Origin: Qipengyuania marisflavi
GTDB lineage: Bacteria; Pseudomonadota; Alphaproteobacteria; Sphingomonadales; Sphingomonadaceae
Reading direction: 5' to 3'
Assembly (NCBI RefSeq): GCF_005884405.1
Contig: NZ_VCAO01000001.1
Coordinates: 738,304 to 802,303 of the forward strand
DNA length: 64,000 nucleotides
The position numbers and the translations under genes are program-made. A model generated the notes under the pieces. It saw nothing but the letters and a program-made list of their open reading frames with translations, was not told the origin of the DNA and made no database searches. Within the stretch, counting starts at the first letter, position 1, and the number at the start of each line of letters is the position of its first letter. Of this stretch, positions 204-6,538 are shown piece by piece.

Positions 204-881
204 ATGACTTATGACGAAGTCGTTCTTGGACGGCGCAGTATTCGCGGTTTTCTCGACAAGCCGGTGCCGCAGGAATTGCTGGCCGAAGTGCTGGAAATGG
301 CCATGCGCGCGCCCTCCAGCTTCAACAATCAGTGCTGGAATTTCAGCGTGGTGACAGGCGCCCCGCTGGAGGCGATCCGCAAGGGCAACACAGAAGGCAT
401 CCTGGCCGGCAAGCCCGACAGCCGCGAGTTTCGCAGCTTCACCACAGTTCCCGATGAACATCGCGGACGGCAGATCGAAATTGCCAAGCAATTGTTTGGC
501 GCAATGGGGATCGAGCGTGAGGACAAGGACGGGCGGCAGGACTGGGTCCTGCGCGGCTTCCGCCAGTTCGATGCGCCGGTCAGCGTGGTGGTAACCTATG
601 ACAAGGTGCTGCTGGGCAGCGACATCGCGCCCTTCGACTGCGGCGCGGTCACCAACGCACTGGTCAATGCCGCCTGGTCACGCGGTCTGGGCTGCGTGAT
701 CAACAGCCAGGGCATCATGCAAAGCCCCGTGGTGCGGCAACACGCCAATATCCCCGAGGATCAGGTCATCATGATCTGCGTCGCACTGGGCTGGCCCGAT
801 GAAGACTTCCCCGCCAACGCAGTGATGTCGAACCGCAAGGGCGTGGACGAGGCGGTGCGGTTTGTGGGGTTTGCTGACTAG
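204..881 (+). CDS. Nitroreductase family protein
   Basis: A 225-residue FMN-dependent nitroreductase-fold protein, expected to reduce nitro or quinone-like compounds with NAD(P)H in the cytoplasm. The N-terminal RRSIRGFLDKPVP and MRAPSSFNNQCWNF segments are the usual FMN-binding entry of the family. The C-terminal half has the GLGCV..QGIM and VALGWPDE segments typical of these flavoproteins. I chose ATG 204 because AGGGG sits 5 bases upstream; a TTG at 183 would add 7 residues. The physiological substrate cannot be told from sequence. It is unrelated in detail to the second nitroreductase at 25927. Confidence 0.85.
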   Translation: MTYDEVVLGRRSIRGFLDKPVPQELLAEVLEMAMRAPSSFNNQCWNFSVVTGAPLEAIRKGNTEGILAGKPDSREFRSFTTVPDEHRGRQIEIAKQLFGAMGIEREDKDGRQDWVLRGFRQFDAPVSVVVTYDKVLLGSDIAPFDCGAVTNALVNAAWSRGLGCVINSQGIMQSPVVRQHANIPEDQVIMICVALGWPDEDFPANAVMSNRKGVDEAVRFVGFAD

Positions 882-942
882 GGTATTTCCCGCAGCGCAT
901 ATGCAGCAAATCTCAACCATCTCCTGGTAGCAATCAGCTTAA

Positions 943-996
943 CGGCACACGCAATCGTGCCAGCACCATTCACCTGCATTGGGCGGGCGGTGCTGG
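943..996. repeat. Two overlapping inverted repeats upstream of the signalling operon
   Basis: GGCAC (944-948) can pair with GTGCC (957-961). CCAGCACC (960-967) is a perfect inverted repeat of GGTGCTGG (989-996). The arms share two bases at 960-961, so the structures compete. The right arm touches the -35 element of the EcfG-type promoter at 995. They could form a weak terminator for the nitroreductase gene or an operator; there is no U-tract. Confidence 0.4.
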
Positions 997-1019
997 AACC
1001 GATCAAATTGCCTGCCGTT
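995..1019 (+). promoter_or_regulatory. Candidate EcfG (general stress response) promoter
   Basis: GGAAC at 995-999 is followed by exactly 16 bases and then CGTT at 1016-1019. This matches the published alphaproteobacterial sigma-EcfG consensus GGAAC-N16/17-CGTT. A start site near 1026 would give a leader of about 50 bases before the GTG at 1076. I found only one other near match while reading the intergenic regions (58678-58702), so the exact match directly before a signalling operon is unlikely to be chance, though it is not proven. Confidence 0.65.
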
Positions 1020-1075
1020 CGTAAGCCAACCGTCCTGCGCGCCATGTGTGTGCAGGCGCCATCGGGGAATTGAAA

Positions 1076-1606
1076 GTGACAGTGAACGCGAAGACTGGAG
1101 AAGTTGCCGAGGCCGGGATTGATCTGGAGCGCGATATTTTCCTGCGCACTTTGCTGCGCGAATTGTCGGGCGTGCTCGAAGATGTGGTCGGGCTGGACGA
1201 TGCCGCCGGTTTCATCAGTGTCGTGGGCACGGCAATGGGCACGCAGATCGATCAGGAATACCGCCGCGCATTGCAGGTGGACCAGCTGTCGCGCGACCAG
1301 ATCCCCGATGTGCTGGTTGATCTGAAACGCCGCATCCAGGGTGAATTTTTCGTGCTTGAGGAAACCGAGGACAAGATTGTCTTTGGCAACAAGCGCTGCC
1401 CCTTTGGCGACAAGGTCCGCGACCGGCCATCGCTGTGCATGATGACTTCCAACGTGTTTGGGCGCATCGCTGCGGACAATTCCGGCTTCGCTGCCGTTGA
1501 TCTGGAGGAGACTATTGCACTGGGCGATCCGGGCTGCCGAGTGACCGTTTATCTGAGGCCAAGCGATGACTTACCCGATACCGCTCGCGAATATTACAAA
1601 GTCTGA
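1076..1606 (+). CDS. Methanogen output domain 1 (MOD1)-containing protein
   Basis: A 176-residue soluble protein. The C-terminal half carries the pattern I associate with the MOD1 signalling domain: NKRCPFGDKV, then PSLCMMTSNVFGRIAADN, then GDPGCRVTVYL, with three cysteines that could bind a ligand or metal. The N-terminal half is helical and undiagnostic. It is the first gene behind the EcfG-type promoter and overlaps the kinase gene by 41 bases, so it is probably the kinase's partner or sensor. I chose GTG 1076 because GGGGAA lies 6 bases upstream; TTG 1070 or GTG 1046 are alternatives. The biochemical role of this domain is not established. Confidence 0.7.
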   Translation: MTVNAKTGEVAEAGIDLERDIFLRTLLRELSGVLEDVVGLDDAAGFISVVGTAMGTQIDQEYRRALQVDQLSRDQIPDVLVDLKRRIQGEFFVLEETEDKIVFGNKRCPFGDKVRDRPSLCMMTSNVFGRIAADNSGFAAVDLEETIALGDPGCRVTVYLRPSDDLPDTAREYYKV

Positions 1607-2642
1607 GGTGCCTTTCCCGGCAGATGCCGCCGCGGTGGTCGATGCGCTCGACCATCCTGCCGCGTGTCTCGACCGCGCAGGCACTGTGCTGCATGCCAAT
1701 CGCGCGCTGCGCGTACTTGCGGGGCCGGACTGTGTCGGGCGCTGTCTGGCTGAAGCATTGCGCGCCGATGTCGGCGATGCTGCGCAGGCGGTCAATGCGG
1801 CGCTGGCTGGCAGCGGTACGGTGCAGGCCAATCTGGCAGTTGAATCCGACGGTGAGCCGGAGCGGATGCGCGTGCGGGCCAGCCGGATGAAGCTTGGCGG
1901 TGAGCCGTGTGTGCTGGTCAGGATGCAGTCTGGTGGCGGAGATCGCTTTCGTGTGCTGTCAGAGCAAGTCGAACTTCTAAAGCAGGAAACCCGCGAGCGG
2001 CAGAAAACAGAAGCGATCTTGACCGAAACGGTCAACGAACGCGAATTGCTGCTGCGCGAGCTACACCACCGCGTGAAAAACAACATGCATATGCTCGGCG
2101 CCTTGCTCAATGGTGCCGCACGAGAGGCCAAAACAAACGAGGCGCGCGGTGCCTTGAAAGATATCGGCGCGCGGGTTGCCGCGCTCGGCACTGTACAGCA
2201 GATGTTGTACAAATCGGATCTACTTGAGCGGATCGACGGCGAAGCGATGGTGACCGCACTCGCTGATGCAACCTTCGGCATTGTGGGGCACGAGGTCGAT
2301 CACACGATTGACTGCGACAGCATCGACTTGCCCGTGAATGTCGCCACCTCGCTGGCGCTGATCTTCAATGAACTGCTCACCAATGCGCTGAAATACGGCC
2401 AACCGGAACAAGGTCGCCAGACAATCGCTGTTGCTCTTGAAGACCGCGGTGACCTCATAGCGCTGTCGGTGAATGACAACGGTCCGGGCTGCGAACCGCA
2501 AGAGGCGCTGCACAAGGCGTCTGGCATCGGACTGGTTCGCGGATTGCTGCGCCAATTGGGTGGCAATCTGACCATTGAATCGATAGACGGGACGCGGTGT
2601 GTGGCGACCTTCAAGATAACGAAGAGCGGGAAAGATTTATGA
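1566..2642 (+). CDS. Sensor histidine kinase, HisKA_2 (HWE-like) family
   Basis: A 358-residue soluble kinase with no membrane segment. Residues about 20-125 look like a PAS sensor domain. A short coiled coil (about 130-160) leads to the dimerisation box ELHHRVKNN, with the phospho-acceptor His at 167 or 168. The ATPase domain follows, with IFNELLTNALKYG as the N-box and DNGPG and GIGLV as the G-boxes. HisKA_2 kinases of this type feed the PhyR general stress response in sphingomonads. The ATG at 1566 has GAGG 7 bases upstream and lies inside the preceding gene; the stop overlaps the next gene by 4 bases (ATGA), indicating translational coupling. Confidence 0.88.
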   Translation: MTYPIPLANITKSEVPFPADAAAVVDALDHPAACLDRAGTVLHANRALRVLAGPDCVGRCLAEALRADVGDAAQAVNAALAGSGTVQANLAVESDGEPERMRVRASRMKLGGEPCVLVRMQSGGGDRFRVLSEQVELLKQETRERQKTEAILTETVNERELLLRELHHRVKNNMHMLGALLNGAAREAKTNEARGALKDIGARVAALGTVQQMLYKSDLLERIDGEAMVTALADATFGIVGHEVDHTIDCDSIDLPVNVATSLALIFNELLTNALKYGQPEQGRQTIAVALEDRGDLIALSVNDNGPGCEPQEALHKASGIGLVRGLLRQLGGNLTIESIDGTRCVATFKITKSGKDL

Positions 2643-3100
2643 TACGCCTAAGCATGCCGCAGAACGGCGACCGCCCCGGTTTCACACCCGCAAGCGATCA
2701 GGACCGCGAAGAGCTGGCAGGTGCATCTGCCCTCAAGGTTCTGTTGGTCGAAGACGATTATTTTGCCGCCATGTCGATCGAAACCGCATTGCAGGATGCG
2801 GGTTATAAAATCGTCGACGTGGTCGACACCGCCGAACGGGCCATTGCATTGTGTGCAGCTGAAAAACCCGATCTGGTGGTGACAGACATTCGCCTGTGCG
2901 GCGAACTGGACGGGATCGACGTGGCAAAATGTGCCGCACAACTGGGCATACCCTACATTATCGCATCAGCACATTCGGATGCCAAAACCCGCGCGCGGGC
3001 TGACGGGTTTCCTCCGGCAGACTGGCTGGTGAAGCCGTTCAGCAACCGTGATCTGGTGCGCGCGGTCGATAGCGAACTGCGCTCCAAGACAAGCCACTGA
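2639..3100 (+). CDS. Response regulator receiver protein (single domain)
   Basis: A 153-residue receiver domain after a 30-residue N-terminal extension, with no output domain. VLLVEDD supplies the acidic pocket, D83 in VVTDIR is the expected phosphorylation site, and LVKPF supplies the conserved Lys. The switch residue is in IIASAHSD, so it lacks the FATGUY motif of the SdrG group. ATG 2639 overlaps the kinase stop (ATGA). The likely role is to receive phosphate from the adjacent kinase, or to act as a phosphate sink or shuttle toward PhyR. That role is inference. Confidence 0.85.
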   Translation: MIRLSMPQNGDRPGFTPASDQDREELAGASALKVLLVEDDYFAAMSIETALQDAGYKIVDVVDTAERAIALCAAEKPDLVVTDIRLCGELDGIDVAKCAAQLGIPYIIASAHSDAKTRARADGFPPADWLVKPFSNRDLVRAVDSELRSKTSH

Positions 3101-3175
3101 AATCTTCCGCATAGGGACATAATCGGCGGCTGGCCCGTTGATTGCGCAGGGATGCGCAAGATGGGAGTTTCACAC

Positions 3176-3966: not shown

Positions 3967-5277
3967 TCAGCGCAAACTCACTACGTTGTCCGCAACTTCG
4001 CGGACGCGGCTGCCGTCATAGAGGCTAGCCATAGGCTCATCCTCGACCACGACGCGTTCGGCTGCTCCGAAGCCGTTAAAATCGGTCTTCATTGCCGCGC
4101 CATAGGCACCCAGCATCCCGATCTCGAAATAGTCACCGGCCTGGATGTCTTCGGGCAGCGTGAACGGCCCCTTCATGTAATCCGCATCATCGCAGGTGGG
4201 GCCATAGCAGGCGAAGTCCATCTCCGGCTTGATCAGGTCGTCTTCCAGTGCACGGACAGGAAATTTCCAGTCGACATGCGCGGCATCGAACAGCGCGCCA
4301 TACGCGCCGTCATTGATATACAATTCGTCACCTCGGCGCTTTTCGACTTTCACGATCAGCGAGGAGTATTCGGCACACAGCGCCCGACCGGGTTCGCACC
4401 ACAGCTCGGCATTGTAGGCGATCGGTAGTGCGTAAAACTGGCGGTGGATGATGGCGAAGAAGTCCTCCAGCGGGGGAGGCTCCATACCCGGATAGACGCT
4501 GGGGAATCCACCACCGACGTCGATCATGTCGATCACCACCGATGCCTCGCCAATCGCCACGCGCACGCGCTCCAGCGCCTGCACATAGGCAAACGGCGTC
4601 ATTGCCTGGCTGCCGACATGGAAACACACGCCCAGCCAGTCACAATGCTGGCGGCTCTGCTGCAGCAGCTCGGGCGCTTCAGTCAAATCGCAGCCGAATT
4701 TGCTGGCCAGGCTCAGCTCGGAATATTCGCTCGACACGCGCAGGCGCACGCACAGGCGCAGATCCCTGGCGCGCTTGCCATCGGCATCGCGGCAGGCATC
4801 GACGATTTTTTCCAGCTCTTCCGCCGAATCGAGGCTGAAAGTGCGCACCCCGTGCTCGTGATAGGCTTCACGAATGGCGCTGGTCGCCTTTACCGGATGC
4901 ATGAAGCACAGCACGGCCTCGGGTAGCAATCCGCGCACCAGCCGCACCTCGGCAATCGAGGCGACGTCATAATGCGTCACGCCATTGTCCCACAGGATCT
5001 GCAGCAGGTCCGGCGACGGGTTCGCCTTGACCGCATAGAGCGACTTGCCCGGAAACTTCTCGATAAAGAAGCGGGCAGCGCGCGCCGCAGCGTGCGGGCG
5101 GTTGAGGATAATCGGCTCGTCCGGCGTAAAAGCGCGGACTACGGACCGGGCGTCAGGATAGCTGTGCAATTCAAGGGACCCCCAAACGGTTATTTCGGAC
5201 AAGGCAGCCTTGCGGTTGGGAAGTCCCCCCTTTGCAGGGAGCTTGGCTGCGGAGGGCGCGTATATAAGCTGCTTCAT
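3967..5277 (-). CDS. Ornithine (or lysine/ornithine) decarboxylase, alanine-racemase-fold type
   Basis: A PLP enzyme that decarboxylates ornithine to putrescine. LYAVKANP holds the PLP lysine. FHVGSQ and DVGGGFPSVYPG bind the phosphate, followed by EPGRALCAEY. The conserved catalytic Cys lies in CYGPTCDDADY. It is the last gene of a group with carboxyspermidine dehydrogenase and decarboxylase, which fits putrescine supply for spermidine. The start is uncertain. ATG 5277 gives 436 residues, but the first 36 do not look like the family and overlap a possible repeat. A TTG at 5169, with GGGGG nine bases upstream, would give a family-sized 400 residues. Confidence 0.85.
   Translation of the reverse strand: MKQLIYAPSAAKLPAKGGLPNRKAALSEITVWGSLELHSYPDARSVVRAFTPDEPIILNRPHAAARAARFFIEKFPGKSLYAVKANPSPDLLQILWDNGVTHYDVASIAEVRLVRGLLPEAVLCFMHPVKATSAIREAYHEHGVRTFSLDSAEELEKIVDACRDADGKRARDLRLCVRLRVSSEYSELSLASKFGCDLTEAPELLQQSRQHCDWLGVCFHVGSQAMTPFAYVQALERVRVAIGEASVVIDMIDVGGGFPSVYPGMEPPPLEDFFAIIHRQFYALPIAYNAELWCEPGRALCAEYSSLIVKVEKRRGDELYINDGAYGALFDAAHVDWKFPVRALEDDLIKPEMDFACYGPTCDDADYMKGPFTLPEDIQAGDYFEIGMLGAYGAAMKTDFNGFGAAERVVVEDEPMASLYDGSRVREVADNVVSLR
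5224..5256. repeat. Possible truncated copy of the intergenic palindromic repeat
   Basis: This segment has the order CCCCC-TTTGCAGGGAG-TTGGC-TGCGGAGGG. It resembles the left and right arms of the repeats at 57373 and 58754, with the middle missing. If it is such an element, the apparent N-terminus of the decarboxylase here is non-coding. The match is by eye and weak. Confidence 0.3.
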
Positions 5278-5286
5278 GAACTGCAA
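5259..5286 (-). promoter_or_regulatory. Candidate sigma70-like promoter for the ornithine decarboxylase gene
   Basis: On the minus strand TTGCAG (5286-5281) and TATACG (5264-5259) are separated by 16 bases. The predicted start near 5252 lies downstream of the ATG at 5277 and upstream of the TTG at 5169, so it would favour the shorter protein. The spacing fits; the match to consensus is moderate. Confidence 0.35.
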
Positions 5287-5362
5287 GTGAAATGTCACTG
5301 CGCAGATACAAGGCCAAGCCCGCTGCGGCGGGGTGTGGGTGCGCCCAAACGGAGTGCGCCGG

Positions 5363-6538
5363 TCAGCTGAGCCGGTCGCGGAAATCCTGATAGCCGAACG
5401 TCTTCACCTGCTCCAACGCGTCGCTGGCCGAATCCCACAGCCAGATGCTGGGCAATTGCACCCCATTGAAGGTGTTGGTTTTGACCATCGAATAATGCGC
5501 CTGATCAAGGAAGGCCACGCGCTGACCCGGCTCGCATGGCACCGGCAGGCGGTAATCACCAATGACATCGCCCGCCAGACAGGATGGACCGCCCAGCCTG
5601 ACCGCTTCGCCCGCACCCTGCTCCTCATGCAACATCGCGGGGCGATAGGGTGCTTCGATCACATCGGGCATGTGGCAAGTGGCGGAAATGTCGGTGATCG
5701 CCACCGGCAGCCCATTCCAGCCATTGTCTAGGATCGTGCCCACTAGAATGCCCGCATCCAGCGCCACCGCCTCACCCGGTTCGAGGTAAATCTCGGCGCC
5801 GGTATCTTCCTTGGCGTCGCGCAGGAATTCAATCAGTTCGTCGCGCTGGTAATCGGCGCGGGTGATGTGGTGGCCACCGCCCATGTTGATCCATTTGAGC
5901 TGGCCGAACCACGGCTCGATCGCATCGAACACCTTGTCCCATGTCTCGCGCAGGGGTTCGAAATCCTGTTCGCACAGATTGTGGAAATGAATGCCCTCCA
6001 CCCCCTCCATGATTTCAGGCGTCAGCTGGTCCAGCGGGAAGCCAAGGCGTGAGCCGGGGCTGGAGGGATCGTAACGCGGCACCTCGCCCTGCGGGCTTTG
6101 CGGATTGATGCGCAGCCCGACATCGAAGCTGCCGCCCTGGCTACGCGCATGCGCCAAGATCAGCGCGGCGCGTTCCATCTGTGCAGGCGAGTTGAAGATG
6201 ACGTGATCCGACAGGCGGCACACCTCCTCCAGCTCATCGGGCTTGTACGCCGCAGAATAGGTCGCGATTTCGCCGTCGTAGAATTCCGACGCCAGCCGCG
6301 CTTCCCACAGTCCGCTGGTGCACACGCCGTCGAGATATTCGCCAATGATCGGCGCAACCGACCACATCGAAAACGCCTTGAGCGCGGCCAGTACCTTGAT
6401 ATCGGCGGCATCGCGAATATCGGCTAGCACCTGCAGATTGGCGCGCAATTTGGCCGCATCTACCACGAAAGCGGGGCTGTCGACGCGGTTCAGATCAAAT
6501 TGCGCAAATGCGCCCGGATCGCCGGCTCTGGTTTCCAT
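5363..6538 (-). CDS. nspC: Carboxynorspermidine/carboxyspermidine decarboxylase
   Basis: A 391-residue PLP-dependent decarboxylase of the alanine-racemase-fold class. It removes CO2 from carboxyspermidine (or carboxynorspermidine), the last step of the SAM-independent spermidine route. LAALKAFSMW carries the PLP lysine. TYSAAYKPDE, HFHNLCEQ, NMGGGHHITRADY and EPGEAVALDAG are characteristic of NspC-type enzymes. The start codon overlaps the stop of the upstream lipoprotein gene by one base (TAATG), so translation is probably coupled. Whether the product is spermidine, norspermidine or homospermidine cannot be decided; spermidine is usual in this group. Confidence 0.9.
   Translation of the reverse strand: METRAGDPGAFAQFDLNRVDSPAFVVDAAKLRANLQVLADIRDAADIKVLAALKAFSMWSVAPIIGEYLDGVCTSGLWEARLASEFYDGEIATYSAAYKPDELEEVCRLSDHVIFNSPAQMERAALILAHARSQGGSFDVGLRINPQSPQGEVPRYDPSSPGSRLGFPLDQLTPEIMEGVEGIHFHNLCEQDFEPLRETWDKVFDAIEPWFGQLKWINMGGGHHITRADYQRDELIEFLRDAKEDTGAEIYLEPGEAVALDAGILVGTILDNGWNGLPVAITDISATCHMPDVIEAPYRPAMLHEEQGAGEAVRLGGPSCLAGDVIGDYRLPVPCEPGQRVAFLDQAHYSMVKTNTFNGVQLPSIWLWDSASDALEQVKTFGYQDFRDRLS

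Follow-up and report, generated by a model that had tools for sequence, protein, structure and literature searches.

The stretch of Qipengyuania marisflavi DNA analysed here (64,000 nucleotides of contig NZ_VCAO01000001.1, hereafter the window) carries near its start, on the plus strand, a compact operon of three genes that encode a MOD1 protein, a histidine kinase and a single-domain response regulator, preceded by a probable promoter of the general-stress sigma factor EcfG. The putative promoter, GGAAC-N16-CGTT with GGAAC as the -35 and CGTT as the -10 element, lies at 995..1019 and is the sole exact match with a spacer of 16-17 nucleotides in the window. It is followed by MOD1 (1046..1606), whose product matched the Pfam family MetOD1 (PF18546) with 78.2 bits against a curated cut-off of 23.8. 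The kinase gene (1566..2642) encodes an N-terminal region that we call the MOD1-partner PAS-linker (~1566-2030), with a Pfam match to PAS_4, followed by HisKA_2 (63.3 bits, cut-off 22.3) and HATPase_c (40.3 bits, cut-off 26.4), and the product of the regulator gene (2639..3100) consists of a receiver only (Response_reg, 63.7 bits).

The exact promoter match and the tight coupling of the three genes, both reported in a first-pass annotation of this stretch, were borne out. The open reading frame (ORF) of the kinase shares its first 41 bp with the 3' end of MOD1 or, if the alternative start GTG 1608 is used, begins just past the MOD1 stop codon, and the kinase stop and the regulator start have an ATGA in common (2639-2642). 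Because of this shared ATGA, the regulator more likely starts at ATG 2639 (giving 153 amino acids) than at 2597; similarly, the alignment described below makes GTG 1076 or 1082 more likely than 1046 as the start of MOD1. The genome of this strain contains one MetOD1 match and nine HisKA_2 matches, and it encodes PhyR.

MOD1 and its histidine kinase partner in bacteria

In a scan of 84,980 species, each represented by a single genome, we confirmed 420 MOD1 relatives and analysed the best 80 of them, so that the counts given here are those of close relatives (loci are numbered with L and genomes with G). These best 80 of the 420, with 56-71% identity, came from Alphaproteobacteria, Cyanobacteria, Nitrospirota, Planctomycetota, Myxococcota, Armatimonadota and from gamma- and betaproteobacteria. 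MetOD1 was described in 2018 as specific to methanogens, where it occurs alone or joined to receiver domains and is regarded as an output domain (PMC5847659); bacteria of several phyla, however, carry MOD1. The window protein belongs to the same family by its curated score and shares with it the three conserved cysteines, but differs in being a separate bacterial protein that stands on the input side of a PAS protein.

The gene downstream of MOD1 was examined in the 78 of the 80 loci with at least 700 bp of sequence after MOD1 (L051 and L076 were left out for their short downstream sequence). L019 and L020, which fall below the MetOD1 cut-off, lay outside the analysis altogether. The downstream ORF was picked by position and length only, and one (L034) was corrected by hand. 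In these 78 loci and in the window the next ORF carried HATPase_c without exception (79/79), the kinase core being HisKA in 51 partners and HisKA_2 in 28. A receiver gene followed the kinase in 27 of the 29 alphaproteobacterial loci examined (27 genome loci and two plasmids), with no match in L036 and L107. The gene order, which the first-pass annotation had proposed to look for in other sphingomonads, is kept in most of these loci; the promoter, as shown below, is not.

Among 122 of the 131 predicted ORFs flanking 23 alphaproteobacterial loci, the commonest Pfam domains were Response_reg (8), HATPase_c (7) and GGDEF (4), and no recurring neighbour named an output. On plasmid pDE of Cereibacter sphaeroides 2.4.1 (L186 3918-10032) the three-gene operon adjoins genes for a heme oxygenase and an EAL-domain protein. 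We found no report of the MOD1-kinase pair in open-licence papers, nor, in the same literature, an earlier description of MOD1 and PAS-linker as a conserved unit whose outputs are exchangeable and which has a probable iron-sulfur (Fe-S) site.

The PAS-linker of the partner protein

When built from 50 kinases from outside Alphaproteobacteria, a PAS-linker profile matched all 28 partner kinases of that class along almost the full model, the window kinase with an E-value of 5.5e-8 over model positions 5-165. The reverse profile, built from the alphaproteobacterial kinases, found a match in 51/51 other loci (counted per locus, not by ORF), and the two profiles matched each other with an E-value of 1.3e-31 over 156 columns; L079 was dropped from one profile for its length. 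The PAS-linker is also specific: the fetched DNA contained 71 ORF records whose core resembles HisKA_2, of which 28 (~21 distinct genes) had no PAS-linker match, and none of these 28 is the MOD1 partner of its locus.

The same region occurs in front of a different output. On the Streptomyces plasmid NZ_CP098484.1 (L188 5995-8102) MOD1 overlaps a gene for a SpoIIE-type phosphatase, whose N-terminus matched the two PAS-linker profiles with E-values of 3.1e-16 and 1.6e-24, and in L004 MOD1 is followed by a 193-amino-acid ORF that carries the PAS-linker only. Since the PAS-linker thus also fronts a phosphatase and stands alone, the output appears exchangeable; judged by these profiles, it changes between HisKA, HisKA_2 and SpoIIE, while the PAS-linker is one constant family. 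The surroundings of the Streptomyces locus, with STAS, RsbA-type anti-sigma and ATP-binding genes nearby, place MOD1 there in a partner-switching setting.

Several observations weigh against so general a pairing. The distant relative L006 showed no PAS partner and L014 a weak one (18.4 bits), and a distant MOD1 on the Priestia plasmid NZ_CP064271.1 (L189 4772-6597) likewise has none, its neighbour being a divergent STAS-domain gene. Moreover, a 366-amino-acid ORF of this genome that is not known to stand beside MOD1 (L027) gave a weak partial match (20.9 and 22 bits), in L061 an ORF on the opposite strand matched at the linker end only, the PAS-linker of the window gave the lowest score among the 28 (30 bits), and the Pfam PAS match on the Streptomyces protein scored 18.8, below the cut-off of 23.1.

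Predicted fold of MOD1 and its three cysteines

We aligned MOD1 in 63 rows from 61 of the 80 loci, leaving out 19 cyanobacterial loci that resembled others closely, with two rows coming from L064. Cys108, Cys121 and Cys154 (numbered from GTG 1076) were invariant in 63/63 rows. An AlphaFold model computed from the 63 rows reached a mean predicted local distance difference test (pLDDT) of 88.1 and a predicted template modelling score (pTM) of 0.84, and Foldseek searches with it gave best E-values of 7e-5 to 1e-3. In VIA-align, the model matched the TRAPP subunit Bet3 with Z-scores of up to 13.8, the phenol sensors DmpR (13.6), MopR (13.3) and PoxR (13.3), the V4R protein mj_1460 (9.5) and H-NOX (8.4). 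As a Z-score below ~13 can be common for helical folds, the match to H-NOX is weak by itself. MOD1 is therefore predicted to adopt a V4R/PoxR-like fold. In Pfam, MetOD1 was the sole match, with neither the V4R nor the HNOB model reported at E-values up to 1. When the MOD1 profile was run against the sequences of solved structures, the best match was an antifreeze-protein repeat (E 0.0085), all others lying at E-values of at least 0.59; we took this match as chance.

A lead on a cofactor comes from a helix-turn-helix protein of the same order (L012, 1090-1734). It matched MetOD1 with 32.4 bits, over the cut-off of 23.8, and its residues 11-203 matched the SufR family TIGR02702 with 56.1 bits, short of the equivalog cut-off of 178.8. 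In the alignment, the three invariant cysteines of MOD1 correspond to cysteines 162, 175 and 203 of L012. In Rv1460, a SufR homologue that binds an Fe-S cluster, cysteines 203, 216 and 244 are conserved and required for function (PMC6034842). The first two cysteines are 13 residues apart in L012, Rv1460 and MOD1 alike, whereas the second spacing is 28 in the former two and 33 in MOD1; in addition, SufR-type repressors fuse the cysteine region to a DNA-binding helix-turn-helix, a domain for which Pfam found no match in MOD1. Judging by this alignment, MetOD1 and SufR may have a C-terminal part in common that binds Fe-S, and most likely the MOD1 cysteines would hold an Fe-S cluster, a zinc site or a thiol switch being the alternatives.

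Some points speak against this assignment, and against a sensory role. The profile of our MOD1 alignment scores L012 with only 2.6 bits, so that the alignment of MOD1 and SufR cysteines rests on the Pfam MetOD1 model and the cysteines themselves. The relatives of MetOD1 include Zn-binding V4R domains as well as phenol-binding ones, and the predicted fold is shared with proteins that are not sensors (TRAPP subunits, BcsD). The 2018 description by Galperin et al. notes a cluster of three conserved cysteines in MetOD1 and its kinship to HNOB, V4R and ATC hydrolase domains, the kinship to HNOB and V4R having been derived from sequence; it also lists methanogen proteins of REC-PAS-MetOD1 architecture, which likewise combine PAS and MetOD1 (PMC5847659). 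As late as 2025 MetOD1 was called a domain of unknown function (PMC11784639).

The EcfG promoter in this genome

The window alone could not establish the significance of the motif, and we rejected it as a basis: 0.73 matches are expected by chance in 64 kb, against the one found, and the genome-wide count of exact copies (41) lies below that of a reversed control motif (63), so that their number is not over-represented. Position, however, told a different story. Genes were called with a codon model that had learned from 43 ORFs of the window; on these calls, 24 of the 41 exact copies, the window's included, stood in promoter position, compared with 1 of the 32 control matches (those within 30 fetched control loci, out of the 63 control sites). 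All 24 are intergenic and lie no more than 90 bp upstream of a gene on the same strand; the phyR motif (C18:57831-57855), which fell inside an overlapping ORF call though it lies ~36 bp before the phyR match, was excluded from them. Given this contrast and the unraised count, it is the position of the motif copies, not their number, that carries the promoter signal. The motif in the window lies 27 to 63 bp ahead of the candidate MOD1 starts.

Ten proteins behind motif copies were scanned with Pfam, eight of which belong to the 24 promoter-positioned cases. These eight are a CsbD protein, a catalase, a mechanosensitive (mscS-type) channel, a DUF3597 protein, a transglycosylase-associated protein (which we take to be GlsB-like), a DksA/TraR-type zinc finger protein, the N-terminal part of a poly-beta-hydroxybutyrate (PHB) polymerase and a TonB-like protein. 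An EcfG-type sigma factor near phyR has an exact motif 269 bp away, outside the 24. Also outside the 24, an exact motif stands 124 bp before a sigma-70-family gene, presumably RpoH-like, inside an upstream ORF call (L123, G000:C11:34399-36399); this motif may connect the general stress response with heat shock. For comparison, the direct targets reported in Sphingopyxis granuli include csbD, katA and mscS, and the EcfG-regulated list of Sphingomonas melonis includes a DUF3597 gene (PMC7083833, PMC6599016). On the strength of motif position, the operon is very probably under EcfG control in this strain, and in this respect the promoter proposed by the first-pass annotation is supported.

Absence of the promoter from relatives and arrival of the operon

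The motif is not conserved in homologues. In a search from -300 to +60, the relaxed motif GGAAC-N15-18-NGTT was found in none of 29 homologous loci (28 alphaproteobacterial and one of Ramlibacter; in L045 only 246 bp of sequence lie upstream of the match), nor in any of the 16 loci of a second set, in which L002, L007 and L008 repeat L029, L030 and L054. A still looser motif gave one match, in L055, at +32 within the gene. This result counts against EcfG control as a general property of the operon, and the first-pass annotation had itself named a motif not conserved upstream of orthologues as an outcome that would speak against its proposal. In two genomes, G009 and G795 (L030), the exact motif stands directly upstream of phyR, yet none is found ahead of their operon, which indicates that these strains use the EcfG consensus but not for the MOD1 operon; in G796 and G797 an exact copy was not seen directly upstream of phyR.

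The operon is flanked by genes for a nitroreductase and a metallo-beta-lactamase-like (MBL-like) protein (window 881-3152), at a site that is variable in the genus. We compared 29 sibling loci (L191-L219), taken from 39 other genomes that carry the nitroreductase gene. The two flanking genes lie within 60 bp of each other in 15 of the 29 and are separated by 690-783 bp in two, and in 12 no metallo-beta-lactamase-like gene is in reach; the operon occupies the nitroreductase site in none of them, and the copy in G009 is located elsewhere. MOD1 itself is patchy, being found in two of 61 near genomes, in 10 of 396 in the order (one being the SufR-like L012) and in 9 of 385 in the class, 7 of these above the MetOD1 cut-off. 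The GC content at third codon positions (GC3) is 0.63-0.68 in the operon, compared with a mean of 0.733 (standard deviation 0.05), which gives weak support for transfer. Patchiness and the empty site in siblings, and weakly GC3, thus support arrival by transfer, and it looks like the operon is a newcomer in this strain and its promoter a local feature. As the MOD1 tree separates Alphaproteobacteria from Cyanobacteria, we make no claim of a recent transfer between phyla.

Further along the window, on the minus strand (3967-6538), a gene for a LysA-like decarboxylase of the pyridoxal phosphate (PLP) type adjoins one for an NspC-like carboxynorspermidine decarboxylase, a polyamine-type pair also present in two sibling loci. 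The NspC-like protein scored 372 bits, below the NCBIfam cut-off of 409.

The response regulator and the PhyR general stress response

Single-domain regulators of the SdrG/MrrA kind act in the network of HisKA_2/HWE kinases and carry the FATGUY motif, PFXFATG(G/Y) (PMC5964349). The window regulator, likewise receiver-only, has the acceptor aspartate and the C-terminal lysine but reads PYIIASAH at the FATGUY site, and the motif is absent from all 28 aligned operon regulators, the window's included, so that the regulator differs from the SdrG type as the first-pass annotation had stated. Two further single-domain regulators of this genome stand 17 and 51 bp behind exact EcfG motifs (L109, G000:C18:46000-62500, and L146); one of the two lies near phyR, and the first of them (L109) is without the FATGUY pattern.

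The NCBIfam PhyK model matched the window kinase with 97.1 bits, far from its cut-off of 750, over residues 129-342 only, and the four solved chains that the kinase matched are blue-light-activated kinases. PhyR is encoded in 23 of the 25 operon-carrying alphaproteobacterial genomes searched (at E 1e-40 it was not found for L092 and L107), but since PhyR is widespread in the class we consider its presence uninformative as a test of function. In the three genomes searched that have a MOD1-kinase pair outside that class, those of Nostoc, Nitrospira and Ramlibacter, PhyR was not found. As such pairs occur outside Alphaproteobacteria, and in these three genomes, the pair is unlikely to have ties to the general stress response as its primary role. 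HisKA_2/HWE kinases are, on the other hand, known inputs to PhyR (PMC6599016, PMC5964349, PMC12148442) and are reported to be promiscuous towards SdrG/MrrA and PhyR (PMC5964349), and by analogy cross-talk of the window kinase with the stress response, through PhyR or an SdrG/MrrA route, is possible.

Discussion

Taken as a whole, the explanation that we favour, and hold to be reasonably likely, is that MOD1 and its PAS partner make up a sensory unit of two proteins which is widespread and of which this operon is a local representative, transcribed here by EcfG. MOD1, which has no recognisable output domain of its own, would be the sensor, with a V4R/PoxR-like fold and an Fe-S cluster on its three cysteines that may read redox state, oxygen, nitric oxide or iron supply. 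Its position beside the partner gene and the analogy to H-NOX suggest that it would act in trans, binding the PAS-linker of the adjacent gene's product and setting the activity of that protein as H-NOX does with its kinase. In Alphaproteobacteria, where the PAS-linker is mounted on a HisKA_2 kinase, phosphate would pass to the adjoining single-domain regulator, and in this strain transcription by EcfG at a variable site would mean that the sensor is made while the general stress response is on. To the most specific form of this proposal, a portable sensor of MOD1 and PAS-linker with a SufR-like Fe-S site, acting in trans on HisKA, HisKA_2 or SpoIIE outputs and rewired by a new promoter, we give even chances.

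A close parallel in arrangement is H-NOX, which shares an operon with the kinase that it regulates, for example HqsK of Vibrio parahaemolyticus (PMC6759604). MOD1 resembles it as a stand-alone protein of related fold in the operon of its kinase, the control in trans being our proposal, but differs in that it has no HNOB match in Pfam and no evidence of heme, and in its conserved cysteines, its dedicated PAS-linker partner and its replaceable kinase core. PoxR, MopR and DmpR are similar to MOD1 in predicted fold (Z ~13) and in having a cysteine-bearing ligand domain; these V4R phenol sensors are, however, parts of transcription activators, whereas MOD1 is free-standing and has no V4R match in Pfam. 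As to wiring, LovK-LovR of Caulobacter and the PhyK/Pak kinases combine a HisKA_2 core, an adjoining single-domain regulator and an EcfG-type promoter as in the window, but in the window sensing would fall to the separate MOD1, and the promoter was found in this strain only.

The step that places the operon in the stress response depends on the promoter, and it is improbable that the match arose by chance and that the operon lies outside EcfG control. The single match in 64 kb, where nearly one is expected, the unraised genome total and the homologous loci without the motif would all fit such a coincidence, but at the contrast between true and control motifs in promoter position about one false case in twenty is expected, and other copies of the motif precede known stress-response targets. 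Downstream of the sensor, three alternative wirings can be drawn, each compatible with the sensory unit proposed here. In the one put forward by the first-pass annotation, EcfG makes a MOD1 kinase whose phosphate reaches PhyR, either directly or through hubs of the SdrG kind, with the result that the stress response is amplified. The precedent of HisKA_2/HWE kinases as PhyR inputs, the likely EcfG promoter and the presence of PhyR here and in most operon-carrying genomes of the class fit such feed-forward control; the operon, however, has its own coupled regulator, its promoter is not conserved, PhyR is so widespread that its presence says little, and MOD1-kinase pairs exist in the three genomes in which PhyR was not found. 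Feed-forward is thus one of three wirings and not the best supported, and we consider it unlikely.

Negative feedback, in which kinase and regulator form a sink that draws phosphate from the stress relay after EcfG activation, under the control of MOD1, seems doubtful to us, though at least as likely as feed-forward, since the nearest precedent of wiring damps the response: LovK-LovR pairs a HisKA2 kinase with a single-domain regulator under the EcfG-type factor SigT and acts as a phosphate sink (PMC5964349). The blue-light-activated kinases matched by the window kinase agree with this reading, but the likeness to LovK-LovR is one of layout, and operons of this type elsewhere have no such promoter. 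A pathway insulated from PhyR, in which stress only raises the dose of the MOD1 system and the output is unrelated, for example motility or cyclic di-GMP, is a serious possibility, if short of an even one. The receiver gene that regularly follows the kinase in Alphaproteobacteria and the use of the unit with other kinase types outside the class argue for it, whereas the reported promiscuity of HisKA_2/HWE kinases and the lack of a recurring neighbour that points to an output argue against it.

Returning to the unit of MOD1 and PAS-linker, a domain named for methanogens emerges as one that is common in bacteria, where it has a constant partner and, probably, a cofactor. Its function becomes directly testable, as the partner, a probable contact surface (the PAS-linker) and three residues can now be named. 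If MOD1 does control kinases in trans, it would join H-NOX as a stand-alone sensor of this fold class, with Fe-S replacing heme, and the switch between HisKA, HisKA_2 and SpoIIE behind one PAS marks the evolutionary junction of sensor and output. The study of the general stress response can take it as a caution: HisKA_2 kinases found behind EcfG promoters may have arrived late, and the sign of their effect needs measuring.

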